From positions 1-44,181 of the forward strand of contig CANGFE010000015.1 of NCBI GenBank assembly GCA_947453155.1: a DNA stretch of 44,181 nt, read 5' to 3'. The notes beneath the pieces were generated by a model. The model made no database searches and was not told the origin of the DNA. It saw nothing but the letters and a program-made list of their open reading frames with translations. This document shows, one piece after another, positions 421-18,132 of the stretch. The DNA comes from Beijerinckiaceae bacterium. GTDB lineage: Bacteria; Pseudomonadota; Alphaproteobacteria; Rhizobiales; Beijerinckiaceae. Each line of letters begins with the position of its first letter. Within the stretch, counting starts at the first letter, position 1. Made by a program: the position numbers and the translations under genes.

Positions 421-438
421 GGTCGATCTCCCTGTCTT

Positions 439-1050: not shown

Positions 1051-1057
1051 ACCTTTA

Positions 1058-1079
1058 CACTCCCGGTTTCGCGGGAATG
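1058..1079. repeat. REP-like palindrome
   Basis: CACTCCCG and CGGGAATG (8-bp arms with one G-T pair) flank a 6-base loop. In the minus orientation it reads CATTCCCG, CGAAAC, CGGGAGTG, close to the dispersed CATTCCCGCGAAAGCGGGAATG palindromes of many alphaproteobacteria. It lies 7 bases upstream of the start codon of the 203-aa gene and contains its GGGAG ribosome-binding sequence. Confidence 0.45.
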
Positions 1080-1281
1080 AAAGCTGGCAGTATAGCCGGA
1101 GCCGTACTTTTGCTGCTTCACAGCCTCATCCCCTCAGGATCCACCTTGCCCAGCGAGGCAGGTTGGCTTGGGCAAATGCCCAACTCTTGATGATGTTTTG
1201 TATTTTATTCAGAACGAATCGTTTGTCAAGTCGAACGGCCCTCATTAACCTGGGGTCAAAATTGATCGATGGAGGGTCGAA
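1080..1281. other. Intergenic region between divergent genes, with inverted repeat and possible promoter
   Basis: This stretch separates the minus-strand 203-aa gene from the plus-strand 113-aa gene. It holds an imperfect inverted repeat, TTGCCCA (about 1146-1152) and TTGGGCAA (about 1168-1175). A weak sigma-70-like promoter may serve the 113-aa gene: TTGTCA at 1223-1228 and TAACCT at 1246-1251, 17 bases apart. Neither has support beyond sequence resemblance. Confidence 0.25.
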
Positions 1282-1623
1282 ATGGATCTGAAGGATTTCA
1301 TGTCACCGGAATGGCCCCGCTGGATCAGTGGTCTCGGTTTTTGCGTCATGAGTGAAGACTCATCAGACAACGCTGGCTGGTCGGAGAGCAAAGGATATTA
1401 CGTCAATTACAATCCCGGGACACAGCTCTGGACGATGACGATCACCACCAACACAGTTCAGAAGGAAGAAGACGGCGCCGAGTTCGAAGAAAACAGCGAG
1501 GAGAATGTCGGCCCGCATGAACTCGGGAAGTTGAGAGAAATCCTCTCAACCTACGAGATCGAACTCGATGATGAGACTGCAAACGAAATCATAAAGAGAA
1601 TGAAGAACCCGCACCTGCTTTGA
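1282..1623 (+). CDS. Small acidic hypothetical protein, 113 aa
   Basis: No family is recognised. The protein is strongly acidic, with an Asp/Glu-rich middle (KEEDGAEFEENSEENVGP, about residues 61-78) and an amphipathic C-terminal helix (LGKLREILSTYEIELDDETANEIIKRM). It has no signal peptide or membrane segment and is probably a cytoplasmic soluble protein. The start is supported by GGAGGG 7 bases before the ATG. It converges on the macro-domain gene that ends at 1641. Small acidic orphans of this kind are frequent in defence islands, but no role can be assigned from the sequence. Confidence 0.6.
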   Translation: MDLKDFMSPEWPRWISGLGFCVMSEDSSDNAGWSESKGYYVNYNPGTQLWTMTITTNTVQKEEDGAEFEENSEENVGPHELGKLREILSTYEIELDDETANEIIKRMKNPHLL

Positions 1624-1640
1624 AAAATAGAATACCGGGT

Positions 1641-2150
1641 TCAACTATGATTTGAAGAGCTTACAGCCTGATCAAGATAGGTTTGATAGGTCTTCCCATC
1701 AAAGCAGATAAACCTGATCGAGAGATGCTTTTCAAAAAATAGTGCTTCCTGAAAAGCAATCTTCGTCGCCTCCGGAATAGGAAACCGGTAGATGCCTGTA
1801 CCGATAGCAGGGATTGAAACCGATTTTATTCCGTATTTAAGAGCGAGCTCGAAAATTGCCCTGTAAGTTTTTCTAAGCAGCGTGGCCTCATCGCGCGTAC
1901 CGTCCCAGTATCGGGGGGCAACAGCGTGAATTACGAATTGAGCCTTCAAATTATACCCTGCAGTAATGCACGCTTCTCCGGTTGCACAGCGTCCGATCTG
2001 TTCACATTCGATCGCCAAATGGTTGCCCGCGGCGGCATGAATTGCACCGCTTATACCGGAGCCCGGAAGAAGCATTTCATTCGCGGCATTGACGATGGCA
2101 TCCGAGGCTTCATCAACAATATTGCCCATGACAATTTCGATCATAAACAC
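1641..2150 (-). CDS. Macro-domain protein (ADP-ribose binding / de-ADP-ribosylation), copy 1
   Basis: This is a complete stand-alone macro domain of about 167 aa, the usual length. The nucleotide-binding segment (GNIVDEASDAIVNAANEML, then LPGSGISGAIHAAAG) fits the family pattern DAIVNAAN...GGGVxGAIHxAAG. The second ADP-ribose loop is GTGIYRFP (about residues 117-124). Family members bind ADP-ribose, and many remove ADP-ribose or O-acetyl groups; activity here is an inference. The furthest start is GTG at 2150, but ATG at 2144 is preferred: it aligns with the start of the second copy (7550) and has GGGGTG just upstream. The gene begins 11 bases after the helicase-nuclease stop, so it is the third gene of that operon. 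Confidence 0.9.
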   Translation of the reverse strand: MFMIEIVMGNIVDEASDAIVNAANEMLLPGSGISGAIHAAAGNHLAIECEQIGRCATGEACITAGYNLKAQFVIHAVAPRYWDGTRDEATLLRKTYRAIFELALKYGIKSVSIPAIGTGIYRFPIPEATKIAFQEALFFEKHLSIRFICFDGKTYQTYLDQAVSSSNHS

Positions 2151-2155
2151 CCCGA

Positions 2156-5100
2156 TCAGTCAGGCTCTGTTTCTCGCCCGACAACTTCAAGAATAGGCAG
2201 TGCACATAGGGTGTTCACCAATTGCATCTGCTCGACACTATTACATTTTGTTGCGCGGAGCCCTGGAGATCCGAAGACAAGTGAAAGTCCCATTGCCCTT
2301 GAAATAGCAACATTCAGTCGATTGAGTGACAGAAGGAATTCCAGACCGCGGGAGCTTTCTTCAGCTGACGATGCCGTCATCGACACAAGGCAAATGGCCG
2401 CTTCCTGTCCCTGGAATTTATCGACAGTTCCTACACGGATTTTTTCAGGCAACGCTTCCTGAAGAGCATTTACCTGCGCATTGTAGGGGGCAACAATTAT
2501 AATATCGGTTTCCGATATGGGCCGCGTTATTCCGTTCTTGTCTGTCCATGTACCGATAAGAAGTTTTGATACACAGGCTTTGATTGCATTTATCTCCTCA
2601 TGGGAGATCTGGATGTTGCCATCGTGATCCACGGGGATGAAATATGCCCCACTTGATGGCCAGTCAGGCACATCCACTTTCTGGATCGCCGTATCGGGGT
2701 GACTTGTCAGCCTTCCTTCATATACTTGCGTGGAAATAAAGCGGCATAAATCGGGATGCATACGCCGCGTCTCGGGCAGGAATATTCCGAGATCTTCCGG
2801 AATTGTGGCGTGGTCTCCGAGAAGATATTCCAATCCGGACAGACCGGCTTCGCCCGGATGAGCGCCCTGGATAACCTGTGGTAGTTGGCGGGGATCGCCG
2901 ATAAGGACGAGATTGCGGGCACAGCGGGCGGTCCCGACGAGATTGGCAAGGCCTACCTGACCGGCTTCATCCACGAAAAGATAGTCGAAGGCATTCGCGT
3001 GTTCAGGGCGGGAGAGCAACCATGCCGTCCCTCCGACAACCGGTGCTGTCAGGAGAAGTCCCTCATCTTTCGAGGTGACAACAGTAACTCCATGCCCGCT
3101 GTCTTCCTCGTCATCGTCAGCTTCATCTCTGCACTTGTGAATGATGTGAACCGCCGGTCCACCATCATCTTTCAATGCATCGGCGACAGCCGTCAGAACG
3201 TTCCGGATAGCCGCATGGCTGTTTGACGAGACCGCTACACGGCGGCCTTCTCTCACCAGAGCCGCTATGGCTTTGGAGGCAACATAGGTCTTACCGGTCC
3301 CCGGCGGTCCCTGAATGGGAAGGACGCTGTAATCAAGATTCCTGACGGCATTGATCACACCTTCGACCAGATCCCCTCCGGTCAATAGAGGTCCCTGATT
3401 TCTAGCCTTGATGGTAGGTGGACGGCGTCCCAGAAAATTGTCGATTGCGCGGTAAGATTTGGGGCCGCACTGGTCAGCGATGACGTCTCTCACAGCTTGC
3501 GCTATGACTTTCACGTTGATCGGGCTCGCAGGATAGAGATTCAAGCGGTCGCGTAGCAGCTCCGATCGTTTATTTCCGGCTTTCAGGACGATCTTCCGCT
3601 TTACCCTGTCGATGCCGGTGACTTCCACACCTGCAAACGCGGTATCAGTCGCAACACTCGGACTCTGTTTGATGCGGATTTTGGTTTCCTGTGGCGGGTA
3701 GCGGTATTCCCGCTCCATGGATTGCTTCACCGGTCGTGCGGGACCCATCGCCTCCAACCCGTAGATACATTCGAGATCATCAATCAGCTCGTCTTCGGTC
3801 CGTGTGAGCGCTTCGAAGACGTTCCGGAAACCCGGCTTCTGTTCCCGCAAATGAAAGAAACCGAGATTGAGAAGCAGCTCACGACGCTCATCGGTGAGGG
3901 AAGCGGACTGGAGCTGTTCGCTCAGCGCCTGCTCCTCGCCGTTTTCCTCTTTCTCTTTATCGGAGAAATCCGATAGCGGCTTGGGCCATGGAATATCCGG
4001 ACGTTTCCTGATCAGAAAATCCCTTAACTGCTGCGTCGAGATACAGTCGATCTTGTTGTATTCCTCGATCTCGTCGAGAATTTTCTGTTCTCCCGTGCTG
4101 CGCCACCGCTCGTAAGCAACAACCGATCCGCCTGCTGTCGTGACTTCGCCTTTGCGCTCGATGTCATAAAAGGCTTCCAGCGATTTGATCGAATAATTCC
4201 GCTCGGACGCGATGATGCCGCCGCGCACCACAGCGTAGAGATCGACAAAGCGTTGTTCGCGCCTCAGCCGATCGAGAAATAATTCACCGACATTGTATTT
4301 TTCGGTTAGTCGAGTGAGTGCCGTCGTCTCGTAAGGGGCGTAATGGTAGATGCGTGAATCGGGGAATTTTTCCAGCCGGTCGCGGAAAAAACCGAAGAGA
4401 TCAATGAGGGCTTGCTTTTCCGCATCATGATCATGCGCCCAGAAAGAAACAAATCCGGTATCCTGCGCCCAAACCCCGTGAAGATATTCGAGGCCACCTT
4501 CGAAGTGCGGATCACCTTCAATATCATAAAAGATATCGCCTTCGGCCGGCTTCGGCAGTCTCGCAAAACCTACGCCTTCCTCGACTTCACGTAGCTGAAT
4601 TGCTGGAGGGCCTCCGGCGTTTCTTGCATGTTGCAATTGCGCCTGGGTTTTCAGGCGGGCAAACGTCTTTGGCGCCAGACGCGGAACCGGATTATCCGTC
4701 CTTGCCAAATCTCCCAATGTGGAGATGCCTGCAGCCTCGAGCTTTTTGACTTGAGACTTGCTGATATTCGCTACCGTAAAGAGGCTGTCTTCCTGATCCC
4801 AGACACTCTCGCAATGCTCTGACCAGGGACATAAGCCGCAGTCATTGCACGGGACTGGTTTTGTAACCGGCCTAGATTGAATGAATTCTTCAAGCCGCTC
4901 GCGCGATTCTCTCGCATAGGCTGCATAGTCGGAAAGTCGGAATTTCCAGCTTTCTCCAGTCCCCAATTCAACGCTTGCAAATTCAGGCATAACGCCCTGC
5001 AACCCTGCAAGCAGATCGGAATACAGGACCAGCTGCAAGATATGCTTGGGATGGGGCTTCCGCTTGAGCTTTGTATCGGCAACCTCGTAGCTATAGGCTC

Positions 5101-5488
5101 CAAGGCCGGAAGGCTTATCAACTTTTGTCAGGAAATCCGACCAGCCACCCCACATTCCCTCAAGAAGGGCTGCCTGAAAGATAATGTCGCTTCCTTCTAC
5201 GAGAGCTTCTTTTGTCTCGCTAAGAGCCTGGGATAATGAGCGACCACCGCGATTAATTTCGCGGACCTTCTTGCCGGATGCCTTCAGTGCAGCAAGATGT
5301 TTTGCCTCATGCTCGTGCCCCTGCCTCTGGAGGAGCCCTGCCTCCGGATCATCTGCCTTTTTTGCAGGCCCCTTACCTTCAAGGTAAAGCAGATCCAATG
5401 TAATCGCGTGACTACACCCCAGAAACCTCATGAGGTCTGTTGCTGAGAGAAGCGGTTTGCCGTTGATGATTTGCAATCTTATCTCCAC
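2156..5488 (-). CDS. TM0106-type RecB-like nuclease / DEDD exonuclease / SF1 DNA helicase fusion
   Basis: The 1110-aa protein has three modules. Residues 1 to about 230 form a RecB/Cas4-like nuclease with Asp118, EVADTK at 135-140 and QLVLY at 152-156, then a cysteine cluster (C214, C217, C220, C226) suited to an Fe-S cluster. Residues about 315-495 resemble a DEDD 3'-5' exonuclease (YDIEG at 321-325; YNKIDC at 477-482). Residues about 700-1085 are a Dna2/Upf1-like SF1 helicase: Walker A GPPGTGKT at 727-734, Walker B VDEAGQ at 839-844, GDPRQLP, and TVDKFQGQE near the C terminus. The frame opens at GTG 5488, but a TTG at 5476 sits 6 bases after GGAG and gives the family-like start MQIINGKPLLSATDL, so it may be the true start. 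It is the middle gene of a three-gene operon. Expected to process nucleic acid ends; a defence role is an inference. Confidence 0.88.
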   Translation of the reverse strand: MEIRLQIINGKPLLSATDLMRFLGCSHAITLDLLYLEGKGPAKKADDPEAGLLQRQGHEHEAKHLAALKASGKKVREINRGGRSLSQALSETKEALVEGSDIIFQAALLEGMWGGWSDFLTKVDKPSGLGAYSYEVADTKLKRKPHPKHILQLVLYSDLLAGLQGVMPEFASVELGTGESWKFRLSDYAAYARESRERLEEFIQSRPVTKPVPCNDCGLCPWSEHCESVWDQEDSLFTVANISKSQVKKLEAAGISTLGDLARTDNPVPRLAPKTFARLKTQAQLQHARNAGGPPAIQLREVEEGVGFARLPKPAEGDIFYDIEGDPHFEGGLEYLHGVWAQDTGFVSFWAHDHDAEKQALIDLFGFFRDRLEKFPDSRIYHYAPYETTALTRLTEKYNVGELFLDRLRREQRFVDLYAVVRGGIIASERNYSIKSLEAFYDIERKGEVTTAGGSVVAYERWRSTGEQKILDEIEEYNKIDCISTQQLRDFLIRKRPDIPWPKPLSDFSDKEKEENGEEQALSEQLQSASLTDERRELLLNLGFFHLREQKPGFRNVFEALTRTEDELIDDLECIYGLEAMGPARPVKQSMEREYRYPPQETKIRIKQSPSVATDTAFAGVEVTGIDRVKRKIVLKAGNKRSELLRDRLNLYPASPINVKVIAQAVRDVIADQCGPKSYRAIDNFLGRRPPTIKARNQGPLLTGGDLVEGVINAVRNLDYSVLPIQGPPGTGKTYVASKAIAALVREGRRVAVSSNSHAAIRNVLTAVADALKDDGGPAVHIIHKCRDEADDDEEDSGHGVTVVTSKDEGLLLTAPVVGGTAWLLSRPEHANAFDYLFVDEAGQVGLANLVGTARCARNLVLIGDPRQLPQVIQGAHPGEAGLSGLEYLLGDHATIPEDLGIFLPETRRMHPDLCRFISTQVYEGRLTSHPDTAIQKVDVPDWPSSGAYFIPVDHDGNIQISHEEINAIKACVSKLLIGTWTDKNGITRPISETDIIIVAPYNAQVNALQEALPEKIRVGTVDKFQGQEAAICLVSMTASSAEESSRGLEFLLSLNRLNVAISRAMGLSLVFGSPGLRATKCNSVEQMQLVNTLCALPILEVVGRETEPD

Positions 5489-5513: not shown

Positions 5514-6755
5514 TCAAGAAATTTTCTTCAACCCTTCAAATCGCACAATCATAGGCCCACCGCGCAAGAGGGGGCCGGGATCGATGCCGCCATCATCAGC
5601 TGATTTTGCGACAGATACTGACGCGAAGTGGCCTACCTTTCCCAAGCTGGCGCATCTATCCGCGATGGAATCCCAATCGTCCGGCATATCTGCTTCGAGG
5701 TTTGGATAACGTGTTGCGCGAACGACGACCCATTCGGGACCATTATCGCCCACAAACCAAAGGGAGGGACTGATATGCGGCTCGCTCTGCCACGACATCA
5801 GCTCCTTGGCACTTTTTCCAATCTGACCTCTAACGACTTGGACCGCAAAATCATGCAGCTCCCAGTCCGTCATCTCGACGGGCATATCTGTGGTCAACTT
5901 GAACGGATCAATCGGATCGCCTGATCTTGCGTCTAGCAGTCCCCAGCCAGGATGGGCGGATGACCATGAGGAGCCGGTCCCTTTCATAGGGAGAATGCAT
6001 GGATGGCCTTGGCACCCTTCGCTGACAGCAGTGAGGCCCCCTCGGTTGCCAGGAACTGTCATCTCTCCATCTACGTCTTCGAGGCGCACGAAAAACAGCT
6101 GGTTCCCCAACCGGAATGATAGGTGCTCAAGAAAGGGTGGGTTGAGATGAGCGCGGAGCCAGACAATTTCACCACGGCCATGGGCATTGAGATGGCGTCC
6201 TGCCGCTTGCCAACAGTACCGGAAGGCCTCCGATGCCTCGTGCATTTCACTATCATAGATCGTTTTTGGTTTTGTATTGAGTGATGCTTTTATCTCGCCT
6301 GTTTCACTTCTCTCGCCGGAAGTACTTAAAATTGCATAGCCGGCAGCATTACGACACACTTCTGCAAGGCGCTCACATTCAGCGATCACCTTATTCAGAA
6401 ATTCTTTCGTATTTTTACTATCGACCCATGCTTTCCACGCGATCGTGTCCTCATCTGAAAGAGAGCGAAACTTAGGGAACGTATCGAGCCATTCGCCTCG
6501 CCAAACATAATTGGTGTCGTCAATGAATTCCAAAACTTGGATGAGCCTTTTGGCTTCGTCTTGAGACCTCGGGATGGGGGCATGTTGCGCGACCTGAATG
6601 ATTTCAGTGCCCTCTGGAAATGGACCTGATCCCATCTCAGGATCTGGGATCCAGTACCAAAAATGCCCGTCAGGACAGGAGGACCAGTTGCCTCCATGAT
6701 CGAAGAGCGCTTGCTTCGAAATACCAAACTGTAATCCGCTTGGAAGGGTTGGCAT
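5514..6755 (-). CDS. Hypothetical protein, 413 aa, first gene of helicase-nuclease/macro operon
   Basis: No family is recognised. The protein has no signal peptide or membrane segment. It is rich in Trp and His (for example YWIPDPE, YVWRGEWLDTF, FRYCWQAAGRHLNAHG, DNGPEWVVVRATR) and looks cytoplasmic, with perhaps two domains: an N-terminal part to about residue 150 with a helical segment (NKVIAECERLAEVCRNAAGY), and a beta-rich C-terminal part. The ATG at 6755 has AAGGAT 7 bases upstream. Its stop lies 25 bases before the helicase-nuclease gene, so the two are almost certainly co-transcribed, with the macro gene third. Its upstream position suggests a sensor or specificity component, but this is context only. 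Confidence 0.75.
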   Translation of the reverse strand: MPTLPSGLQFGISKQALFDHGGNWSSCPDGHFWYWIPDPEMGSGPFPEGTEIIQVAQHAPIPRSQDEAKRLIQVLEFIDDTNYVWRGEWLDTFPKFRSLSDEDTIAWKAWVDSKNTKEFLNKVIAECERLAEVCRNAAGYAILSTSGERSETGEIKASLNTKPKTIYDSEMHEASEAFRYCWQAAGRHLNAHGRGEIVWLRAHLNPPFLEHLSFRLGNQLFFVRLEDVDGEMTVPGNRGGLTAVSEGCQGHPCILPMKGTGSSWSSAHPGWGLLDARSGDPIDPFKLTTDMPVEMTDWELHDFAVQVVRGQIGKSAKELMSWQSEPHISPSLWFVGDNGPEWVVVRATRYPNLEADMPDDWDSIADRCASLGKVGHFASVSVAKSADDGGIDPGPLLRGGPMIVRFEGLKKIS

Positions 6756-7058: not shown

Positions 7059-7550
7059 TTAATAGCTTGCAGCCTGATATAGATAAGCTTGGTAACCCTT
7101 CTCACCAAAGCAAACAAACCTGATTTCGAGATGCTTTTCAAAAACCCGTGCTTCCTGAAAAGCAATCTCGGTCGCCTCAAGAACAGGAAACCGGTAGATT
7201 CCGGTGCCTATAGCGGGAATTGAAATCGATTTTATTCCGTACTTTAGGGCGAGTTCGAAAATAGCCCTGTAAGTTTTTCTGAGCAACCTGGCCTCATCGC
7301 GCGTTCCGTCCCAGTATCGGGGGGCAACAGCGTGAATTATGAACCGCGCTCTCAAATCATATCCCGAGGTAATGCGGGCGTCTCCGGTAGCGCAGCGTCC
7401 GATCTGTTCACATTCAAGCGCCAGTCGCCTGCCTGCAGCCTCGTGGATCGCCCCGCTTATGCCGGAACCCGGAAGGAGCATTTCATTCGCTGCATTGACG
7501 ATGGCATCTGTGGCTTCATCAACTATATTGCCAATCATGATCCCAATCAT
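7059..7550 (-). CDS. Macro-domain protein, copy 2
   Basis: This 163-aa macro domain is about four-fifths identical by eye to the one at 1641-2150. The same motifs are intact: GNIVDEATDAIVNAANEML, LPGSGISGAIHEAAG and GTGIYRFP. Differences are spread along the protein and are largely conservative, so both copies appear to be under selection. The ATG at 7550 has GGAG about 8 bases upstream. Unlike copy 1 it has no intact helicase gene before it; only a short stretch resembling the helicase C terminus remains (7563-7709). The predicted role is the same: binding or hydrolysing ADP-ribose adducts. Without its own operon it may depend on an unidentified promoter in the 440 bases upstream. Confidence 0.88.
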   Translation of the reverse strand: MIGIMIGNIVDEATDAIVNAANEMLLPGSGISGAIHEAAGRRLALECEQIGRCATGDARITSGYDLRARFIIHAVAPRYWDGTRDEARLLRKTYRAIFELALKYGIKSISIPAIGTGIYRFPVLEATEIAFQEARVFEKHLEIRFVCFGEKGYQAYLYQAASY

Positions 7551-7991: not shown

Positions 7992-10985
7992 ATGAATTCC
8001 GCACAATCTGAGACAAGTACAAGTGGGACTTGGTCTTACTCAGTAGCTAACGATCCAAAACATCGGCCTCAGTCTTTGGATCGTCCAGCGACTACAGTAA
8101 GACGTGAGTGGTCGCGCTGGCCGCAGGAGGCACACCTTCTCGATGAGGAGCGCTCAATGTACAGGCGGCTCACAATCGCTGAGGTTGCAATAATCCAAGG
8201 CTTTGATCAAAGCTGGGTCAATGTTCCGGGGGTGAGCAATAGAGATCAAATTGCCGCACTCGGCAATGCGGTGCCGCCAGCTCTAGCGGCTGCCATAGGT
8301 AGAAGTGTACGTGAGCATTGGAACTTCGCCAATTACAATAGCATCGAGATTTGCGCAGGCATTGGTGGGCTCGCTTTTGCTTCATCAGCAGCGGGCCTAG
8401 AGCCATCCACACTGGTGGATTTCTGGGAGCCCGCGTGCACTATCCTGCGGCACAAAAAGCCATGGAGCTCATCTAAAGTTATATGCGCGGATGCACGTGA
8501 TTTCGATTATGTACAGCACAAAGAAATTGGAATGCTTCTAGGCGGCCCCCCATGTCAGCCTTGGTCTCACGCAGGACAAGGTCTTGGGCAAGTCGATCCA
8601 AGAGACCTACTTGGTTACTTTCCTCAGATCTTGCGCGATTGCGAACCGGAGGTTTTCCTGATTGAAAATGTGCCAGGCCTGTACACAAATCCTAATCACA
8701 GGGAATACCTAGAGAACCTGATCGCCCGCCTTTGCCACCCTTCCGACGCACTTGCATATGGGTTGGGTGCGGCCCTTTTCACGGCAGCTGATTTTGGGGT
8801 CCCCCAAGTGCGTCGCCGGCTTTTTATACTTGGTTTTAAAAATCGGTCCGGCGCGTTCGCAGAAAAGGTTCTGAAGCGAGTAGAAAACTTTGCAACCCAC
8901 TCAGAGGCATCGACGCCAAATAAAGGGCGGCGATCTTGGGTAACATTACGTGAGGCTTTTAAGGGACTTAGGGACCCAGGTGGCTGGATGCCTCTTCCCA
9001 AGAAGGAGAGTTTTCTCATGATAGAATCTCCGCCCGCGCCTGGTCTTGAACTAGACCATGGCCAGCTTGCACTTCAGTGGCCAGGTAAAGGGGATATTCC
9101 CCGAGTACTGGACAACGTCTGGCAGCTTTCGAAACCAGATACCGCAATACAGTACCGACCGTTTCTCCGGTGTGACCCTGAAGAGGCTCCAAATATCAAG
9201 AATAGCGCTGCAACGATCATATACGGTGATCTAGTCGACGCTCTCGATGCTCTCCGTCCAGCAACTCGCGGTAGGATCGATTTAGTCTACCATGAAACTC
9301 ATCGAGTTGATGTACTCGCAAAGGAGTGTAAAAACCCGACTTACCGAAACTCCGTTTGGCTAAGTATTCTGCGTGAATGTAGCGCCCGCGCGCGCCACAT
9401 GCTCAAGCGAAACGGATTTTATGCGCTTCAAGTCGATGATGCTTCGTACCATTATGCCCGCCTAAGCATGGACGAGGTGTTCGGGGCCTGCAATTACGTT
9501 TGCACTCTCGTCTGGCAGAAGAAGTACGGGCCACAGAATGATCTGAACGTGCCAACTGCGGCGCAAGAATATATTATTATTTATTCTGTTGCGTCAGCAG
9601 AAGAGCTCCCGGTGATGGGCTTTAAATTTGCCGACGATCTTGTTGATGATGGTGACCCAAGAGGTCCTTGGGATGCGGGGCACAAGGGCGCCAAATCTGG
9701 GAGCGAGGAGTCAAAATTCGAAGTCAATGCTCCACCATATAGATGGGAACTGGTGTCAGGAAACCTTCCGCCAGGCGCATGGAGGCTTAATACGCTTAGC
9801 GGCGTCATTTGGGGTGCAAAAGCATCCGCCGAAGGATCATACGAAATCGTAGTTAAGGCAACCGACGCGGCAGGTTCGATCGCGGAAAAGCGTCTCATCA
9901 TAAAGGTTTCCGTGGCTTCAAAAGAATGTTTTCCTGACGAAGTACCATGGTTATTTAGCGATAAGAATGGCGGCAAAAAAGATGGGGAACTCCAGATAGT
10001 AAGCCCAACTGATTGGAATGTTCGTCTTGGGAGCGAGTTTTCGATTGCGCTGCAGGCCACTGGAGGATCACCGTTCGCCTTTGGAGAGAACAAAAAGGGG
10101 AAGCCCAAGCAAGGTCGTTACTGGGAATTCTCTCGTTCGACATTGCAAAAAGCGGTGTTGCGCGACGATGTCGATTTTGGATCGACAGGAAAGGCGCTTC
10201 CCTCAACGAAAAAGCACCACCCTCGTTCGGGCCGGATCCGACGCATTACAACGTGGTGGGATTATGAGCGGTATGGCAAGTCTGAAGATGCATCACGCCA
10301 CCTGAACGAATTGAAAGAAAAAGGCTTAATTCCAACTGCTGCATTAGTTGCCAAACCTGAGCGTCTAATAATTAAACTCCTTGACCTCTTAGCTCCAAAT
10401 CGGGCCGCTCGTGTATTGTGCATTGGTGATAACGCAGCCTCAATGGCTAGTGTTTGCGTCAAGACGGGCCGCACTCCAATCGTGCTCGCAAACGGAACTC
10501 TTTCTAGTTTGAAAATATGGAATGAGTGCGGTTTACCGCGACTAAAAGCGGTCTTAGCTGGAAACGATCCCGGAGGGATCAGTAGTGAAATACCTTCGGA
10601 AGATAGGACACCGGGAGATATTCTTGAGCTTGAAGTGGGCACCCATGTTTTCTCACAAGACAGGGTCGATGGCTTCGTTGATCTCAATAGCAGCGAATAT
10701 GACATCGATGGTGGTAGGCTTCTAGAAGCGGTGGGTAGCTTAGCTGGATTTTTTGCCGAGCCCGCCAGCAGCCGATCGGGACAAAATCTTGACGGAGCTC
10801 GCTGCGAGATTCTTAGTCCGAACGAGCCCCTCACGGGTGCTAATTTAGCGGCGTTCGAGGCAGACGGAAACCCATCGCCTCTGACAATCCTTTACGAGAG
10901 CACAAGCTTAGACGCCGAGCAGCTTGCGGCCTCCAAGTTGAGGCTTCTTAGGTATCCTGAAGACTTGGTCGGAAGAAAAAAATGA
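7992..10985 (+). CDS. Circularly permuted cytosine-5 DNA methyltransferase fused to a catalytically degenerate type III Mod-like module
   Basis: In this 997-aa fusion the cytosine-5 methyltransferase motifs run in permuted order. Motif IX-like RPATTV (31-36), RRLTIAEVAIIQGF (58-71) and motif X GNAVPP (91-96) come first; then motif I ICAGIGGLA (120-128), motif IV GGPPCQP with catalytic Cys188, motif VI ENV (225-227) and motif VIII QVRRRLFILG (272-281). From about 400 it resembles a type III Mod subunit (YGDLVDALDAL; ALQVDD; LVWQKKYGPQND; TTWWDYERYG; KPERLIIKLLDLL). The DPPY position reads ETHR (435-438), and the FxGSGTT position reads GDNAASM (812-818), so adenine-methylation chemistry should be lost. 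Residues about 572-640 resemble a putative Ig (He_PIG) fold (GNLPPGAWRL...SGVIWG...GSYEIVVKATDAAG). The stop overlaps the res start by ATGA. Confidence 0.88.
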   Translation: MNSAQSETSTSGTWSYSVANDPKHRPQSLDRPATTVRREWSRWPQEAHLLDEERSMYRRLTIAEVAIIQGFDQSWVNVPGVSNRDQIAALGNAVPPALAAAIGRSVREHWNFANYNSIEICAGIGGLAFASSAAGLEPSTLVDFWEPACTILRHKKPWSSSKVICADARDFDYVQHKEIGMLLGGPPCQPWSHAGQGLGQVDPRDLLGYFPQILRDCEPEVFLIENVPGLYTNPNHREYLENLIARLCHPSDALAYGLGAALFTAADFGVPQVRRRLFILGFKNRSGAFAEKVLKRVENFATHSEASTPNKGRRSWVTLREAFKGLRDPGGWMPLPKKESFLMIESPPAPGLELDHGQLALQWPGKGDIPRVLDNVWQLSKPDTAIQYRPFLRCDPEEAPNIKNSAATIIYGDLVDALDALRPATRGRIDLVYHETHRVDVLAKECKNPTYRNSVWLSILRECSARARHMLKRNGFYALQVDDASYHYARLSMDEVFGACNYVCTLVWQKKYGPQNDLNVPTAAQEYIIIYSVASAEELPVMGFKFADDLVDDGDPRGPWDAGHKGAKSGSEESKFEVNAPPYRWELVSGNLPPGAWRLNTLSGVIWGAKASAEGSYEIVVKATDAAGSIAEKRLIIKVSVASKECFPDEVPWLFSDKNGGKKDGELQIVSPTDWNVRLGSEFSIALQATGGSPFAFGENKKGKPKQGRYWEFSRSTLQKAVLRDDVDFGSTGKALPSTKKHHPRSGRIRRITTWWDYERYGKSEDASRHLNELKEKGLIPTAALVAKPERLIIKLLDLLAPNRAARVLCIGDNAASMASVCVKTGRTPIVLANGTLSSLKIWNECGLPRLKAVLAGNDPGGISSEIPSEDRTPGDILELEVGTHVFSQDRVDGFVDLNSSEYDIDGGRLLEAVGSLAGFFAEPASSRSGQNLDGARCEILSPNEPLTGANLAAFEADGNPSPLTILYESTSLDAEQLAASKLRLLRYPEDLVGRKK

Positions 10986-13306
10986 GAGAATACGAGCTCC
11001 AGAGTGCTTTCGACCTCGTTTCGCGTCGAATGTCATTGCGACGACCACAGCTAACAGCGCTACGAAAGTTCCACGAGGCAATCAAACGGCTCCCGGGAAA
11101 GCTCTCCGATACCGATCCTGTTGAATCGTATGGTTATTTCCGCGAGAGCTTTCCAAACTTTCCAACAAACGGAAACCTAGAGCTTACCTGCGCGCTAGCC
11201 ACTGGTGTAGGAAAGACGCGGCTCATCGGGGCTATTATCGCGTATTTGCACCTTTCAGGCGAAGCAAATCGCTTCCTCATATTGGCGCCGAGAACAACTA
11301 TCGTTGACAAGCTCATCCGGGAATGCGCGCCCGGTCATCCAAAATACCTATTTGTAGACGAGATGCTGGTAGGTGAACCTGAGGTAGTGCACGCTGGCAA
11401 TCTTAAAACCTTCAACCCAAGCCAACAGAGGCTAACATCAGGCCCAGAGATTTGGATTTTCTCGCCGCAGTCGATCGCGGGTAGTGAAAGTCTAAAATTC
11501 AAAACGCCAACAGAATTTCTCAATGGAACTCCTGTCGAATATCTCACAAGAGATCGGGGTCTTGCTGCGTTTTTTGATGAGAGCCATTACTTAGGAGACG
11601 ATTCCTCCGGCCGCGGTGCTTGGATGACTGAGCTCCGCGCCCTCAAGCCTGATGTGCTGATCGAGACTACAGGCTCACCGCGAATAGGAGTTAATATTCT
11701 CCATGAATACGATATCAGGGAAGCTCTTGAAGAAGGAATTTACATCAAAAATGTTGAATTATTTCCAAAAAAACGCCCAGCTAATATTCAGGACGACGAA
11801 TGGGATCGGATAACTCTTCGCGATGCATTAAAGAGACTTCGCATCAAAGAGGAGGCACTTAATCGCAGACACAAAGATAATGGCTCGCCACTAGTTAAGC
11901 CGGTGATGTTGGTCTGCGCTGAGAGCAAAGAACACGCTGACGCTATCACTCCCTGGATACAGGATCAGCTTGCGCCGGGCGAAAAGGCAATTTCTGTTCA
12001 TAGTGGTCGAAATGAAGAGGAGTATGTCAGCGAGCTTTTGCAAGTAGAGAAAAATGACGTGAAGGTCATCGTCCATGTATTTAAGCTTACGGAAGGCTGG
12101 GACGTACCAAATGTTTACGTAATAGCGTCGCTGCGTGCGATGGCCTCAGTGCGAGGTGTGACGCAGACTATGGGAAGAGGCCTGCGATTGCCTTTCGGCA
12201 TACGGATAGGCGACGAAGAAGCCGACTCCTTGGATTTGCTTTGTTACGGAAGTGATACGTCGCAAACCATAGTCGACGACCTCATCAAGAACGGGTTCGG
12301 TAGTAGCGTGCCTGGCCAATGTCTTATCCAAGTGCGCGATGACCCAGAGGAGTCTCGTAGTCGCGAGCCATCGAAAACGGTGATCTATCCAGCATTAACG
12401 GTAAGGGAGCTGCGACTCCAATCGACTGCATTAAAGCCCCAGAAGCCAGATCTTGATGTCTTGAATTTGCCTTTTGGGAACCCAGAGCGAATGCTCAGCA
12501 TTGGGCTCCGTAATCTGCAAATTCGAGAGCACGGCACGGACGCTGCAGGCATTGAGAGGCAGCGCTTTCGTTCTATAGTTACAGAAGGAGTTTTAAGAAT
12601 CTGCCGGAATCTTGGCGGGCTGACTGATCGCGCCAGCCTCCTTCGTCTTGTCGATCGTATGCTTGATCAGGCAGGCCTCGCGGGCGCGGCGCTGGTTCCT
12701 ATTGATATAGACATGGCAACTCGACAAATTGCAGAAATTATCAAAAAAGAGACGCAGCGCATTGACCCTGAATATATCCTTTCCGGACTGACTAATACTT
12801 ATGTGGTTAGTGAGCTGGTTTGCCGAGTTCCAGTGTCGTTCGTAAAACCATTGCAAGCTTCGCATCTAACAATGACTTCTTGGAGTAGGTCTATGCACGC
12901 CGGAATACCGGTCACAGGATGGACAAAATGCCCGCATGAGGCCGTCACATTCGATAGCGCAGGAGAGCTGGCAGCTGCTAAAGTACTTGACCGGAGCGAG
13001 GGAGTGGATTGGTGGACGCGCAACCTCCCAAGGTCTTTTGGGCTCGTCACCCCCGCAGGAAATTATTATCCAGACTTCCTTCTAGTTTGTAAATTAGAAG
13101 ACGGAGGGCAGGTATTGCTTGAGATAAAGGGCGAATTTCTAGCTGTTGGAGAACAGTCCGAAGCTAATCTGAAAGCAAAAGCTGCTCGAGCTTGGTGCGC
13201 GGCCATGACTGCGAATGGCGTGCCCTGGCAATACTGGTTCGTCCTGGATCGGGATGCTCAAGCATGTCAAACAGTGCAAGATCTAAGACGAGCTTCTGAG
13301 CGCTGA
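10982..13306 (+). CDS. res: Type III restriction endonuclease Res subunit (SF2 translocase with PD-(D/E)XK nuclease)
   Basis: This 774-aa protein has the Res layout. The SF2 motor has Walker A ATGVGKT (73-79), Ia LAPRTTIVDKL (101-111), motif II DESH (199-202), motif III TGSP (230-233), EGWDVPN (371-377) and motif VI QTMGRGLRLP (395-404). A C-terminal PD-(D/E)XK nuclease has Glu661, YYPD (695-698) and LEIKG (713-717, Glu714 and Lys716). All key residues are present, so ATPase and cleavage activity are expected. Type III Res proteins act only in complex with Mod; here the coupled upstream gene supplies a degenerate Mod-like module instead of an active one. The ATG overlaps the upstream stop (ATGA), indicating translational coupling. 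The 3' end overlaps the convergent cytosine-5 methyltransferase gene by 24 bases. Confidence 0.93.
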   Translation: MREYELQSAFDLVSRRMSLRRPQLTALRKFHEAIKRLPGKLSDTDPVESYGYFRESFPNFPTNGNLELTCALATGVGKTRLIGAIIAYLHLSGEANRFLILAPRTTIVDKLIRECAPGHPKYLFVDEMLVGEPEVVHAGNLKTFNPSQQRLTSGPEIWIFSPQSIAGSESLKFKTPTEFLNGTPVEYLTRDRGLAAFFDESHYLGDDSSGRGAWMTELRALKPDVLIETTGSPRIGVNILHEYDIREALEEGIYIKNVELFPKKRPANIQDDEWDRITLRDALKRLRIKEEALNRRHKDNGSPLVKPVMLVCAESKEHADAITPWIQDQLAPGEKAISVHSGRNEEEYVSELLQVEKNDVKVIVHVFKLTEGWDVPNVYVIASLRAMASVRGVTQTMGRGLRLPFGIRIGDEEADSLDLLCYGSDTSQTIVDDLIKNGFGSSVPGQCLIQVRDDPEESRSREPSKTVIYPALTVRELRLQSTALKPQKPDLDVLNLPFGNPERMLSIGLRNLQIREHGTDAAGIERQRFRSIVTEGVLRICRNLGGLTDRASLLRLVDRMLDQAGLAGAALVPIDIDMATRQIAEIIKKETQRIDPEYILSGLTNTYVVSELVCRVPVSFVKPLQASHLTMTSWSRSMHAGIPVTGWTKCPHEAVTFDSAGELAAAKVLDRSEGVDWWTRNLPRSFGLVTPAGNYYPDFLLVCKLEDGGQVLLEIKGEFLAVGEQSEANLKAKAARAWCAAMTANGVPWQYWFVLDRDAQACQTVQDLRRASER

Positions 13307-14431
13307 CGCTTCCTCAAGCAAGTTTGGTGTTATGCTGAGGTCGCGTAGCTTTTTGAGCAGGTCTTTGGGGCATGGTTTTCCGGAACGCTCCAATCTACTA
13401 AGTAGGCCTCGTGCAGCGCGGCCGCTGAGTGGCTCGTTTATGGATCGGTCAATGAACGAGCCTAAATTAGCAGAGAGTTCTGACTGCTTATTTGAAACGG
13501 CAAGCGTACCTGAACCAAAGTCAACACCGTCGCGAGGAATACCCTCAGTAGGAAAGAGATCGGTTGTAATATAATCGGGATTTTTTGCTTCAAAGACGCC
13601 GTCCATGACAAATGTTCCCACAGGTAACGCCACAGCGTTTCCTGCCATCGCAAACTTGGCCTTATCTGGGATGTCCACAAACTGGTCTAAAGGGAACCCT
13701 TGAACAGAAAGACACTCATCCGCTGAAGCTTTCCGGACCATGTCGTCGTAATACAGCGCTGGAGGCGATGGAACGCCTATTGAAGATCCAATTTTCAGAG
13801 CGGGAACATATCCTTCTGAGTAACAGATACCTTGTAGGCCAGCTGTCCAATAAAATCCTGAGGCACGCGTCAAGCTGATCACTGCGCCCTGGTTCACCGG
13901 CCGATGAAGAGAGGCTGCGAGCTCACGGAACTTTGATGCCACCAGAAAAATTCGGTTGCGGTTCTGGGGAAGTGCAAACTCACGAGCATTCAGAGTACGC
14001 CACGCTACTGACGTAAAGCCAGCTTGCTGAAGCGCAGTAACAACTAGCCGAAATGCACGGCCACCTTCAATTTTAAGCAGGTTAGGAACATTTTCGGCGA
14101 TGATTGTGTGAGCTCCGACGTCAGAGGCAAGCTCGAGCATCTTGAAAAACAGTCCCGACCGCTCGCCAGCCAAGCCTTTACGGAGACCGGCAGCGCTGAT
14201 GTCTTGGCATGGCCACCCGCCTGCTACCACTTCGACTGGAGGCGGAGTAGCTGTTCGCACATCAGGGTAAAGCTCTGCTTTAGAAAATTTTCTGCTGAGA
14301 ACTTTTTGGCACCATGGGTCAATTTCACAGACCGCGTCGGGGCTATTTTTTGAGCCCTCCAGCCCGCCGATGCCGCTAAAAAGACTTATGTAGCGCATTT
14401 TAACCCATTCTGAACGATGCCACCAAATCAT
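13283..14431 (-). CDS. DNA (cytosine-5-)-methyltransferase, normal motif order
   Basis: The protein transfers methyl groups from SAM to cytosine C5. In the 382-aa reading: motif I SLFSGIGG (16-23), motif IV GGWPCQDIS with catalytic Cys75, motif VI ENV (113-115), motif VIII QNRNRIFLVA (156-165), motif IX region ASADECLSVQGFP, and motif X AGNAVALPVG (263-272). The presumed target-recognition region (about 166-230) is short. The C-terminal 100 residues are not part of the standard core. The longest start is ATG 14431, but the internal ATG at 14398 gives MRYISLFSGIGG, the usual N terminus, and may be the real start. It converges on res, so it is likely the second modification enzyme of the locus, perhaps protecting the other strand or another site. 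Confidence 0.93.
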   Translation of the reverse strand: MIWWHRSEWVKMRYISLFSGIGGLEGSKNSPDAVCEIDPWCQKVLSRKFSKAELYPDVRTATPPPVEVVAGGWPCQDISAAGLRKGLAGERSGLFFKMLELASDVGAHTIIAENVPNLLKIEGGRAFRLVVTALQQAGFTSVAWRTLNAREFALPQNRNRIFLVASKFRELAASLHRPVNQGAVISLTRASGFYWTAGLQGICYSEGYVPALKIGSSIGVPSPPALYYDDMVRKASADECLSVQGFPLDQFVDIPDKAKFAMAGNAVALPVGTFVMDGVFEAKNPDYITTDLFPTEGIPRDGVDFGSGTLAVSNKQSELSANLGSFIDRSINEPLSGRAARGLLSRLERSGKPCPKDLLKKLRDLSITPNLLEEASALRSSS

Positions 14432-15536: not shown

Positions 15537-16055
15537 ATGCCTACTGTAATTTCGGGAAACCTGGAGAGCGGGCGGATGCAATCGCCCACCCGGATTTCCA
15601 GGAAGCAGAGCGTCCCGGTTCACGCCGCGATTATCCATGAGCGCATCGAGGTTCTTCAATCGCTTGATGTGATCGCACTTCGCGAAGAATGGTACAGGCT
15701 CAAGGGCTCTGCCCCGCCCCGGCTCAGCCGCGACCTCTTGCTTCGAGCTGTTGCCTACGAGCTGCAAGTCGAAGCCTTTGGCGGACTATCGGCACAAGCG
15801 CATCGGAAACTCTCGAGATCGGACGAGAGGGCAGGCGAGGCTCTAGAAGCTCCTGAGCGTCCCAAAGCACGCCTATCTTCTGGCGCGCGGCTTGTTCGCG
15901 AATGGCATGGGCGCACGCATAGCGTCGAGGTTCTGCAAAACGGCTTCCTCTTCGAGGGGCAGAACTACCGATCTCTGTCAAAGATCGCGCGCCGCATTAC
16001 GGGCTCGCATTGGTCCGGTCCCCGTTTCTTCGGATTAGCTAAAAGGAAAAAATAA
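15537..16055 (+). CDS. DUF2924 domain protein
   Basis: The 172-aa protein carries the DUF2924 signature along its length: LREEWYRLKGSAPPRLSRDLLLRAVAYELQ (about residues 48-77, here shown in pieces as LREEWYRLKG and PRLSRDLLLRAVAYELQ), AFGGLS, then ARLVREWHGRTHSVEVL and the end ITGSHWSGPRFFGL. The molecular role of the family is not established; its members sit directly upstream of serine recombinases on mobile elements and probably assist integration or excision. It begins 5 bases after the DUF3489-like stop, and the recombinase starts 5 bases after its own stop, so the three genes form one tight operon. Confidence 0.88.
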   Translation: MPTVISGNLESGRMQSPTRISRKQSVPVHAAIIHERIEVLQSLDVIALREEWYRLKGSAPPRLSRDLLLRAVAYELQVEAFGGLSAQAHRKLSRSDERAGEALEAPERPKARLSSGARLVREWHGRTHSVEVLQNGFLFEGQNYRSLSKIARRITGSHWSGPRFFGLAKRKK

Positions 16056-16060
16056 GACCC

Positions 16061-17785
16061 ATGTCGCCCGCATCGCCCCGCCAAAAAATCCGCTGCGCCA
16101 TCTACACCCGCAAATCGTCGGAAGAGGGCCTAGAGCAGGAATTCAACTCACTGGATGCGCAGCGTGAAGCCTGTGAGGCCTATATCAAAAGCCAGCGCCA
16201 CGAAGGTTGGATTGTCATACCAGCACTCTATGACGACCCGGCCTATTCAGGCGGCAATATGGACCGGCCTGCTCTCAAAAGACTCCTGGCAGATATTGAT
16301 GCCGGCCGGATCGATACTGTTGTTGTCTACAAAGTGGACCGCCTGACGCGCGCCCTCGCTGACTTTGCAAAGATCGTGGAGGCTTTTGACGCAAGGGGCG
16401 TGACCTTTGTTTCCGTCACACAGGCCTTCAATACGACAACCAGTATGGGGCGCCTGACACTGAATGTGCTGCTGTCATTTGCCCAGTTCGAACGGGAGGT
16501 CACCGGCGAGCGGATCCGAGACAAAATCGCCGCTTCAAAGAAGAAGGGTATGTGGATGGGTGGCCTGCCGCCTCTGGGCTTCGATGTCCAAGATAGGAGG
16601 CTCGTTGTGAATGGTGGGGAAGCAGAAACTGTCCGGCATATTTACAAGCGCTACTGTGCCATTGGATCAGTGCGCGCACTTGCGCAGGAGCTGGAGACAG
16701 GAAAAATCTTCAGCAAGGTCAGGGCTACAGCAGACGGCACACGCTATGGCGGCAAACCTTTCTCAAGGGGCGCCCTCTACCAGCTCCTCCAGAACAAAAT
16801 CTATATCGGCTTCACAACCCATAAAGGGCAAAGCTATCCCGGAGAGCATGATGCGATCGTGTGTCAAGATCTTTGGGAGGCGACGCAAACTCTCCTGAAT
16901 ACCAATCGCGTTGCGCGGCGCTCCCTTACGGGAAACGTACAGATCCTGACCGGCCTGGTTTTCGATGCGTCCGGAGAAGCAATGACACCTTCCCACGCGA
17001 GCAAGAAGGGAATCCGCTATTGCTATTACATCTCCCGAACGCTGACCAAAAACTGCAAGGGTGATCATCCGGAGGGGCAACGAATTCCGGCAAACCTGAT
17101 CGAAGATCTGGTGATCAATCGCATCAAGGCCTTGTTGAATGAGCCTGAAGACTTACTGCAGGCCCTTCCCGCTTTCTTTCAAGGCGCGACTTTCCAGTCA
17201 AGGCTGAACGATCGTTCAAAAGAAATCCTGGACGCAATCGAAAAAGATCCGGCAAGAGGCTGGAAGCACATGATCCGACAATTTATTACCCGCATTCAGG
17301 TCCATCGTGACCATGTCGAGATCCAGGTGCATAAAAATGATCTCGCCAAAATGCTATTTGGTGATCGGGAATATTCTTCTGCGGACGAGCATGACCCCGA
17401 ACATCCTGTAATAAAAATTCGGGTTGATGCGACGATTAAACGGACAGGCAAAGAACTGAAGTTCATCATTCAAGGCGCAAACAATCAGGCCCCTGATCAA
17501 TCACTGATCCGATTGCTTCGCCGCGCGCGTTCAATCCAGGATGCAATTGAAACATCAGTAAGCGCTTCAATCGAGGAAGTTGCATCCTCGCAAAACATCA
17601 CGCCATCTTATGTAGCGCGGTTGATGCGTCTCAATTATCTGGCGCCCGATATTGTCGAAGCAATTATTGCCGGCCAGCAGCCTGCAGGACTGTCAGCGAA
17701 CAAGCTGATTAAAGACAGCCGGTTTCCGCTTGGTTGGTATGAGCAGCGCATCGCACTCGGGTTCGAACAAAGCGACGCCCACTAA
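16061..17785 (+). CDS. Large serine recombinase (integrase) of a mobile element
   Basis: The 574-aa protein has an N-terminal resolvase catalytic domain (about 10-155) with the YTRKS motif, nucleophile Ser19, and VYKVDRLTRALADF. A Recombinase domain follows (about 175-280, with NGGEAETVRHIYKRYC and GGKPFSRGALYQLLQNKIYIG). The expected zinc-ribbon region (about 290-345, LVFDASGEAMTPSHASKK) lacks a CxxC pair, as in other members of this alphaproteobacterial group. The C-terminal part is probably DNA-binding. It catalyses site-specific integration and excision. It is the third gene of the DUF3489/DUF2924 cassette and lies 257 bases from the 3' end of a tRNA-Ser gene, marking the right boundary of the island. 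Confidence 0.92.
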   Translation: MSPASPRQKIRCAIYTRKSSEEGLEQEFNSLDAQREACEAYIKSQRHEGWIVIPALYDDPAYSGGNMDRPALKRLLADIDAGRIDTVVVYKVDRLTRALADFAKIVEAFDARGVTFVSVTQAFNTTTSMGRLTLNVLLSFAQFEREVTGERIRDKIAASKKKGMWMGGLPPLGFDVQDRRLVVNGGEAETVRHIYKRYCAIGSVRALAQELETGKIFSKVRATADGTRYGGKPFSRGALYQLLQNKIYIGFTTHKGQSYPGEHDAIVCQDLWEATQTLLNTNRVARRSLTGNVQILTGLVFDASGEAMTPSHASKKGIRYCYYISRTLTKNCKGDHPEGQRIPANLIEDLVINRIKALLNEPEDLLQALPAFFQGATFQSRLNDRSKEILDAIEKDPARGWKHMIRQFITRIQVHRDHVEIQVHKNDLAKMLFGDREYSSADEHDPEHPVIKIRVDATIKRTGKELKFIIQGANNQAPDQSLIRLLRRARSIQDAIETSVSASIEEVASSQNITPSYVARLMRLNYLAPDIVEAIIAGQQPAGLSANKLIKDSRFPLGWYEQRIALGFEQSDAH

Positions 17786-18042
17786 GAACAAAATATTGGC
17801 GCAGCACGAACTCAAATACCGTACCTGAACGCCGGAAAACGTGACTGCCTGGCGCGCAGGCAGAGACTTCCGTACTGCCAAAAAAGATAACTGAGAAAAG
17901 CACGGCAGTTTCGGCCAAAAAAGGCCGTCAAAGCGTCTCTGCTGTGAGGGCAACGGAAGCCGGGCTCACAAGCTACTGAAACCACGTGCACAAGTCGCGC
18001 GCGAAAGGTCTAAAGCCGGACTGGGGTTCAGAGATGAAAGAC
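17786..18042. other. Junction between recombinase and tRNA-Ser, with hairpins
   Basis: The region holds a perfect stem, CTGCCTG (17845-17851) and CAGGCAG (17857-17863) with a GCGCG loop, and a second, CGGCC (17912-17916) and GGCCG (17923-17927) around AAAAAA. Either could terminate the recombinase transcript, though neither has a T tract, or form part of an attachment site. The island-to-core boundary should fall between here and the tRNA 3' end. Confidence 0.4.
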
Positions 18043-18132
18043 TGGCGGAGGGAGCGGGATTCGAACCCGCGATACGGTTTCCCGTATACACACTTTCCAG
18101 GCGTGCGCCTTCAACCACTCGGCCACCCCTCC
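18043..18132 (-). tRNA. tRNA-Ser(GGA)
   Basis: The 90-nt sequence includes an encoded CCA. On the minus strand GGAGGGG pairs with TCCCTCC (acceptor). The anticodon arm is CACGC-CTGGAAA-GTGTG, giving anticodon GGA. A long variable arm (TACGG-GAAA-CCGTA) and the T arm GCGGG-TTCGAAT-CCCGC follow. The long variable arm and anticodon identify a class II tRNA-Ser. Its 3' end faces the island, the usual geometry of integration at a tRNA gene. Confidence 0.97.

Follow-up and report, generated by a model that had tools for sequence, protein, structure and literature searches.

Type III restriction-modification (R-M) systems are defined by an active amino-methyltransferase, Mod, which carries the motifs DPPY (motif IV) and FxGSGTT (motif I, which binds S-adenosylmethionine, SAM), together with a Res subunit that combines a superfamily 2 (SF2) helicase and a PD-ExK nuclease and is encoded beside mod. 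They methylate an asymmetric site on one strand, and their cleavage requires ATP and a pair of sites in inverted orientation. Cytosine-5 (C5) methyltransferases also exist in a circularly permuted form, with motif X placed ahead of motif I, and the named natural enzymes of this kind belong to type II systems. The accessible part of a REBASE survey counts 27 natural permuted C5 enzymes (PMC5944983). For the type III enzyme EcoP15I, the accessible text of PMC4490356 describes one Mod chain, ModA, that recognizes the DNA while its catalytic cleft is empty and that contacts Res through its C-terminal domain, methylation being carried out by ModB. Furthermore, all type III systems characterized before the report of N4-methylcytosine (m4C) in this class are given there as marked by N6-methyladenine (m6A), m4C being the new case, and no type III system with 5-methylcytosine (5mC) is described in the accessible part of that paper (PMC8259958). 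Here, we analyzed a window of 44,181 nucleotides from a Beijerinckiaceae bacterium (contig CANGFE010000015.1, assembly GCA_947453155.1), in which a single open reading frame (ORF) joins a permuted C5 methyltransferase to a catalytically dead type III Mod and is followed by a Res gene, an arrangement most aptly called a type III-like R-M operon with a C5 enzyme as its predicted writer.

The ORF (997 aa, plus strand), its permuted motif order with Cys188 and the loss of both Mod motifs had been put forward in an original prediction made from the DNA sequence, and all of these were found as described. The ORF was matched at one place in the 2.79 Mb host assembly (83.6% complete). Its N-terminal part matches the C-5 cytosine methylase family (PF00145, E = 2.2e-45, residues 116–303), with the motifs RRLT (IX, 58–61) and GNAVPP (X, 91–96) preceding ICAGIGG (I, 120–126), PPCQPWS (IV, including Cys188, 186–192), ENV (VI, 225–227), and QVRRR (VIII, 272–276). 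The profile built from nine C5 parts (A4) aligned with M.HaeIII as two blocks in swapped order, profile positions 105–274 on M.HaeIII 4–166 and profile positions 36–95 on M.HaeIII 264–322, and the window enzyme is therefore circularly permuted. In the AlphaFold2 (AF2) model, 10-residue means of the predicted local distance difference test (pLDDT) lie between 65 and 95 for residues 21–330, except for 52 at residues 191–200.

Homologous operons with C5, Mod, and Res were identified at five other loci, namely on a Methylobacterium aquaticum plasmid (L032), in Microvirga sesbaniae (L039), in Sphingomonas (L041), and in metagenome-assembled genomes (MAGs) of Prevotella (L040) and Armatimonadota (L043). 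A profile of the six Mod parts (A6; window and these five loci) retrieved Mod chains from the Protein Data Bank (PDB), with 6k0w at 1.5e-24, EcoP15I (4zcf) at 1.7e-15, and Mbo45V (7dsu) at 7.2e-13. PADLOC models of type III Mod matched the window protein directly (MTase_III, 2.3e-24, best stretch 405–536; another model, 9.3e-24, 403–573), and N6_N4_Mtase (PF01555) matched residues 454–537 at 1.8e-5 with 25.3 bits, just below the cut-off of 26.7; the Microvirga homologue reached 47.0 bits. The AF2 model of the full window chain, a check proposed with the original prediction, was built from 10 sequences (pLDDT 61.7; predicted template modeling score, pTM, 0.40) and was matched best by Foldseek to the EcoP15I Mod chain 4zcf_B (E = 1.0e-9), followed by M.HhaI (2.0e-9). 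For the Prevotella Mod modeled alone (5 sequences, pTM 0.59), the eight best Foldseek matches were chains of 6k0w, the 4zcf Mod, and 7dsu. The possibility that the Mod similarity was not real, which had been named as a reason to abandon the prediction, can thus be set aside: the PADLOC, PDB-chain profile, and Foldseek matches agree on a protein of the type III Mod family, and the profile matches together with the Prevotella model rule out a chance resemblance.

Within this family resemblance, both catalytic motifs are lost at all six readable loci. The stretch LvYldlP of the six-Mod profile aligns on YIDPP of 6k0w and 4zcf, where the window has YHETHR. The DPPY position thus reads ETHR in the window, DLPR in L032, L039, and L041, DIPR in L043, and DAPR in L040, so that D[LIA]PR is found in five of the six loci and the final R in every one of them. 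Matches to [DNS]PP[YFW] in L032, L039, L043, and L038 lie away from the aligned motif IV site, at which DPP[YFW] occurs in 0/6 loci. The motif D.F.GS was absent from the three forward frames of all six operons, and the window reads GDNAASM (812–818) at the FxGSGTT position. Homologues with both motifs intact, which would have pointed to a single decayed allele, were therefore not encountered among the six, and the predicted loss of adenine chemistry is supported as a state kept across the loci. Among 34 control ORFs that encode canonical Mods (including the identical L049 and L050; L014, with a frame below 250 aa, was left out), DPP[YF] was present in 33, the remaining one (L020) being cut before motif IV, and F-x-G-S in all 34.

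Downstream of the fusion, the Res subunit carries a Walker A motif (ATGVGKTR), DESH, motif VI, and a C-terminal endonuclease domain with PD...ExK. It matches ResIII (PF04851, 1.8e-12), RE_endonuc (PF19778, 1e-7), PADLOC REase_III (2e-44), and the EcoP15I Res chain 4zcf_C (8.9e-8). An SF2 helicase and a PD-ExK nuclease are thus encoded beside mod as in type III systems, and the unit extends beyond the single ORF of the original prediction, which listed neither the Res gene nor an immunoglobulin-like (Ig-like) stretch within the Mod part, to an operon that includes Res.

This Ig-like stretch lies in the region that holds the target recognition domain (TRD) in canonical Mods; in EcoP15I, the recognition domain comprises residues 263–384, between motifs VIII and X (accessible text of PMC4490356). 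The match to He_PIG (PF05345) is below the cut-off in the window (residues 582–639, E = 0.0025), reaches 7.2e-7 in the Microvirga Mod (residues 245–301), and lies at the cut-off in the Armatimonadota Mod (5.2e-5). The Prevotella Mod has no Pfam match at this position; its region still aligns, as it does in all six Mods, and strands are predicted there in both AF2 models. We propose that the Ig-like region of the dead Mod may act as its DNA sequence reader.

The three-part set was found in six of the seven loci with sufficiently long contigs. All six show C5 motifs IX, X, I, IV (PCQ), VI (ENV), and VIII, as well as Walker A and motif VI of Res, and they represent three phyla according to the record titles. 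The PD-ExK site was likewise found in all six (five by pattern, L032 by eye), on a separate small ORF or frame in L032, L039, and L041; in L043, the DExH site extends into a stretch of undetermined bases, and in frame-broken loci the motifs are spread over more than one frame. The motif counts leave out L037 and L042, whose contigs end within or before Mod, and L038, which has no Mod or Res motif. The Methylobacterium locus is arranged as vsr, C5 with an N-terminal helix-turn-helix (HTH)-like stretch, frame-broken Mod, Res, and the nuclease ORF; Microvirga as MerR/HTH-C5, Mod, Res, and the nuclease ORF, with vsr on the opposite strand; Prevotella as C5 lacking the HTH, Mod, and Res with its nuclease; Sphingomonas as vsr, C5 with an HTH-like stretch, and frame-broken Mod and Res; and Armatimonadota as a single HTH-C5-Mod chain followed by Res in pieces, with undetermined bases. 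In the viral contig L037, an HTH-C5 continues into the start of a Mod at the contig end (41% identity to L043 over 66 aa, 6.9e-13), and L042 comprises an HTH-like stretch and C5, after which its contig ends. A programmed frameshift in L032 and L041 was considered; the DNA alignment gave no clear common signal, and the interruptions were treated as broken frames or sequencing errors.

The original description as one chain is thus correct for the window, for the Armatimonadota locus and, up to the end of its contig, for L037. It does not apply to L032, L039, L040, and L041, which encode C5 and Mod in two neighboring genes whose ends overlap or almost touch. In a phylogenetic tree of 39 Mods, from which L020 was left out and in which L041 and L032 fill less than half of the columns, the six dead Mods formed one side of a branch opposite the 33 canonical ones (support 100/100). 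While a warning was raised for long branches meeting (window with L040), the other five still grouped when the window was removed (100/99). The C5, Mod, and Res trees are concordant, each pairing the window with L040 and L039 with (L032, L041). Provided that the fused window and the split L040 are correctly paired, at least two events of fusion or fission would have taken place. The fused and adjacent forms argue that C5 and Mod act together, repeated fusion or fission being the usual sign of this. Moreover, a gene for Vsr (very-short-patch repair) stands beside the operon in three of the eight homologous loci (L032, L039, and L041). Vsr mends T:G mismatches that arise by deamination of 5mC, and these neighbors therefore fit an active 5mC writer.

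Homologues were sought by several routes. Using tblastn, the window Mod part met 165 records among 72,556 plasmids, one of which (Methylobacterium aquaticum) covered at least 80% of the query, and the Prevotella Mod led to the same single record at this coverage. A scan of GTDB contigs starting from the window and this plasmid produced 44 pattern matches; 7 loci were confirmed, and coverage showed 6 of them to be real (L038–L043), whereas L044, with 18 matched residues only, was dropped. Viral contigs, which had yielded L037 in the pattern search, were scanned with a profile of the permuted region (A5), which retrieved L037 again, with the whole window protein, which gave no match, and with the Mod profile, which gave five loci, all with DPPY; a search of phages for the permuted region gave no match. 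In partly overlapping genome samples, A5 matched 1 of 385 genomes of the class, 1 of 301 of the L040 family, 1 of 298 of the L041 family, and 1 of 398 of the phylum, each being an already known one. Among 121 near relatives (the host included), whole-protein matches comprised the window and four genomes with a C5 segment or a Mod segment only.

We consider it probable that the operon is a type III-like R-M system whose self mark is 5mC and whose dead Mod serves as DNA reader and Res dock. The Mod chain would have lost SAM binding and amino-methylation and kept the roles of sequence reader and dock, and the permuted C5 enzyme, fused or encoded by the adjacent gene, would assume the methylating role of ModB and deposit 5mC at, or adjacent to, the site read by Mod. 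Driven by ATP and held by Mod, Res would then cut DNA with unmarked sites. Such a reduction of Mod to reading and docking is mechanically plausible, because EcoP15I ModA already plays that role. In the window chain, C5 methylation may thus have replaced the adenine chemistry, as originally predicted. Since an active Mod, one defining feature of that class, is lost, we do not assign the operon to type III proper; that it works like such a system is our reading. A more detailed version, on which we are nearly evenly divided with a slight lean to doubt, separates reader, writer, and cutter into three modules as a third chemistry of type III-like restriction: the Mod lineage would have abandoned methylation entirely, gained the Ig-like recognition region and the D[LIA]PR loop, and recruited the permuted C5 enzyme as the writer, with Mod as the reader that alone sets the specificity of writer and cutter.

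Other explanations have to be weighed against a shared, Mod-directed 5mC mark. The operon might house two units, with the C5 enzyme reading its own site through its N-terminal segment and Mod-Res responding to another signal, for example foreign marks. The segment ahead of motif IX is strongly conserved among the loci, although these were found by patterns taken from it, and the free-standing permuted enzymes of phages (the second judged by eye) have a longer segment there, so some recognition may remain in the operon enzyme. We nevertheless regard two independent units as unlikely, since the fusions in the window and L043, the overlapping or nearly touching genes elsewhere, and the concordant trees speak for joint action, and a nuclease responding to the marks of its own partner would presumably be suicidal. 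Less credible again is a purely epigenetic or regulatory role in which Res no longer restricts: dead enzymes are often retained as regulators, and frames are broken in several loci, but the Walker A, motif VI, and PD-ExK sites are kept in all six loci across three phyla, which argues for selection on helicase and nuclease. We give hardly any credence to a decayed allele, that is, a Mod that drifted in this host genome beside an incidental C5 part. While the ETHR of the window differs more strongly from DPPY than the tetrapeptides of the five other loci do and some relatives are frame-broken, the window frame is open for 997 codons, and the motif loss common to all six loci, their single clade, and their own residue pattern (D[LIA]PR, with the invariant R) contradict decay.

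Several points weigh against the preferred reading of a 5mC-marked, type III-like system. The production of 5mC, protection by it, specificity through the Ig-like stretch, and type III-style cleavage by Res are all predictions from sequence, and the AF2 models serve fold assignment only, because their confidence was moderate. The segment ahead of motif IX in the operon C5, which shows a 15-column gap relative to the permuted enzyme of Thermus phage phiLo and few predicted strands in the window, is shortened and might be a reduced recognition region, leaving any division of labor with Mod conjectural. As the search patterns were short and came from this segment, both its invariance and the sampling of loci carry a bias, and the loci found are a lower bound. 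The set is unbroken throughout only in the window, L039, and L040, since L032 (Mod) and L041 (Mod and Res) are broken and L043 has both undetermined bases and broken frames. The exception among the sufficiently long contigs, L038, has a lone C5 gene that is decayed beyond motif IV and is followed by neither a Mod nor a Res motif; when a dead Mod was sought elsewhere in this genome, the best match was a Mod of the canonical type, in which DPPY and GSGTT are both present. Finally, no Vsr gene was found in the window or in L037, L038, L040, L042, or L043, several of these contigs being too short to exclude it.

Two side observations concern the C5 part. Free-standing permuted C5 methylases with a longer segment ahead of motif IX than the operon enzymes were seen in Thermus phage phiLo (L060, 2815–4014; aligned) and, by eye, in a faecal phage contig (L061, 2827–3990). 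A C5 part devoid of a TRD had been considered and was dropped, as the comparison with phiLo shows the segment to be shortened, not absent. Furthermore, an N-terminal MerR/excisionase-like HTH precedes the permuted C5 in L032, L039, L041, L042, L043, and L037 (with a Pfam score above the cut-off in L039 and sub-threshold scores in L043 and L037; recognized by eye in L032, L041, and L042) and is lacking in the window and in Prevotella.

Table 1. Features of the C5-Mod-Res operon and of its surroundings in the window.
Feature	Position	Strand	Remarks
Fused permuted C5 methyltransferase and catalytically dead type III Mod ORF	7992–10985	+	997 aa
Permuted C5 methyltransferase part, residues ~11–335	8022–8996	+	Six checked motifs present
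Motifs IX and X, ahead of motif I	8163–8279	+	Aligned to M.HaeIII 264–322
Cys188 codon	8553–8555	+	Within C5 motif IV, PPCQPWS
Type III Mod-like part, residues ~362–997	9075–10982	+	From near conserved WPGK; profile match to PDB Mods; Foldseek
YHETHR (residues 433–438) at the DPPY (motif IV) position	9288–9305	+	ETHR, residues 435–438, nt 9294–9305
Ig-like (He_PIG-like) stretch, residues 582–639	9735–9908	+	Within the region holding the TRD in canonical Mods
GDNAASM (residues 812–818) at the FxGSGTT (SAM-binding motif I) position	10425–10445	+	
Res subunit, 774 aa	10982–13306	+	ATG start overlaps the stop of the C5-Mod ORF
Second, non-permuted C5 methyltransferase	13283–14431	-	PF00145, 8.8e-36; end overlaps Res tail to tail
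Macro-domain (ADP-ribose) protein	1641–2150	-	Flanks 2156–5488 and 5514–6755
Large RecB-like nuclease and helicase protein	2156–5488	-	TIGR03491, 5.6e-76; PADLOC MkoA, 1.7e-48
413-aa protein	5514–6755	-	No significant family match; adjoins 2156–5488
Macro-domain (ADP-ribose) protein	7059–7550	-	Flanks 2156–5488 and 5514–6755
DUF2924 gene, large serine recombinase (16061–17785), and tRNA-Ser (18043–18132)	within 15537–18132		

The second C5 methyltransferase was considered as a member of the system and rejected: a tblastn search of the window and the eight loci met, besides the gene itself, only the operon C5, in the window and six of the eight loci. On the other side of the operon, the RecB-like protein and its 413-aa neighbor are possibly a separate defence system, and the macro-domain proteins show distant DarG-like matches (1.9e-5). 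With the recombinase and tRNA genes downstream, the defence genes of the window seem to belong to an island that was inserted beside tRNA-Ser. In L037, phage baseplate/tail-like ORFs were seen by eye at 116–3810, upstream of the C5-Mod fusion, and the system may therefore be prophage-borne.

If the reading of a 5mC-marked, type III-like system is true, the operon would show that steerable 5mC writers have a precedent in nature; it also opens to testing the question of whether a foreign methylase can be directed by a dead Mod. Many type III assignments come from methylome surveys by single-molecule real-time (SMRT) sequencing, in which 5mC is easily missed, so C5-marked type III-like systems could remain unseen. 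The self mark would also be exchangeable while reader and nuclease motor are retained, the type III marks in print being m6A or m4C according to the accessible part of PMC8259958. The layout of C5, dead Mod, and Res had no description among the literature matches listed (titles and abstract openings), a weak negative since subscription journals and preprints were mostly uncovered, and is not described in the accessible parts of PMC10853773, PMC12707154, and PMC12839542. DISARM and Druantia were also considered and rejected, as the matches to DrmMII and DruM sit among generic C5 matches (in the best 25 PADLOC rows for the two C5 proteins) and no other hallmark gene of these systems was found in seven scanned window proteins except a weak DruK match (E = 0.00026, 2159–5488).

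Among known systems, METTL3-METTL14 offers a parallel, in that METTL14 is a dead amino-methylase partner that serves an active methylase as nucleic-acid-binding scaffold; unlike the operon, this pair is eukaryotic, acts on RNA, and draws both chains from one family. The closest relatives are type III R-M systems (EcoP15I, 4zcf; 6k0w; Mbo45V, 7dsu), which share the Mod in sequence and predicted fold, the Res helicase and PD-ExK nuclease, and the order of mod before res, and which in EcoP15I also split recognition and methylation between two Mod chains (accessible text of PMC4490356); in contrast, the operon Mod lacks motifs IV and I and has an Ig-like stretch within the TRD region, and the operon includes a permuted C5 enzyme. 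The m4C type III system of Murray and colleagues (2021) likewise has a mark other than m6A, but there, as far as the accessible text goes, Mod itself makes m4C, whereas the mark of the operon would come from an unrelated C5 enzyme (PMC8259958). M.BssHII, M.Alw26I, M2.Eco31IC, M.Esp3I, and M2.BsaI share the placement of motif X ahead of motif I (accessible part of PMC5944983), while the operon C5 is tied to Mod and Res and has a shortened segment ahead of motif IX; some of the 18 putative permuted C5 enzymes in that survey could belong to the C5-Mod-Res family. Finally, DndH differs in its gamma-group origin, in its HerA/FtsK ATPase, and in having neither a C5 partner in its chain nor a type III Res, yet, according to the accessible part of PMC10853773, it resembles the operon in retaining an inactive DAM-type methylase domain, with an eroded SAM loop and [SDN]PP[FYW] motif, together with a TRD and a nuclease.

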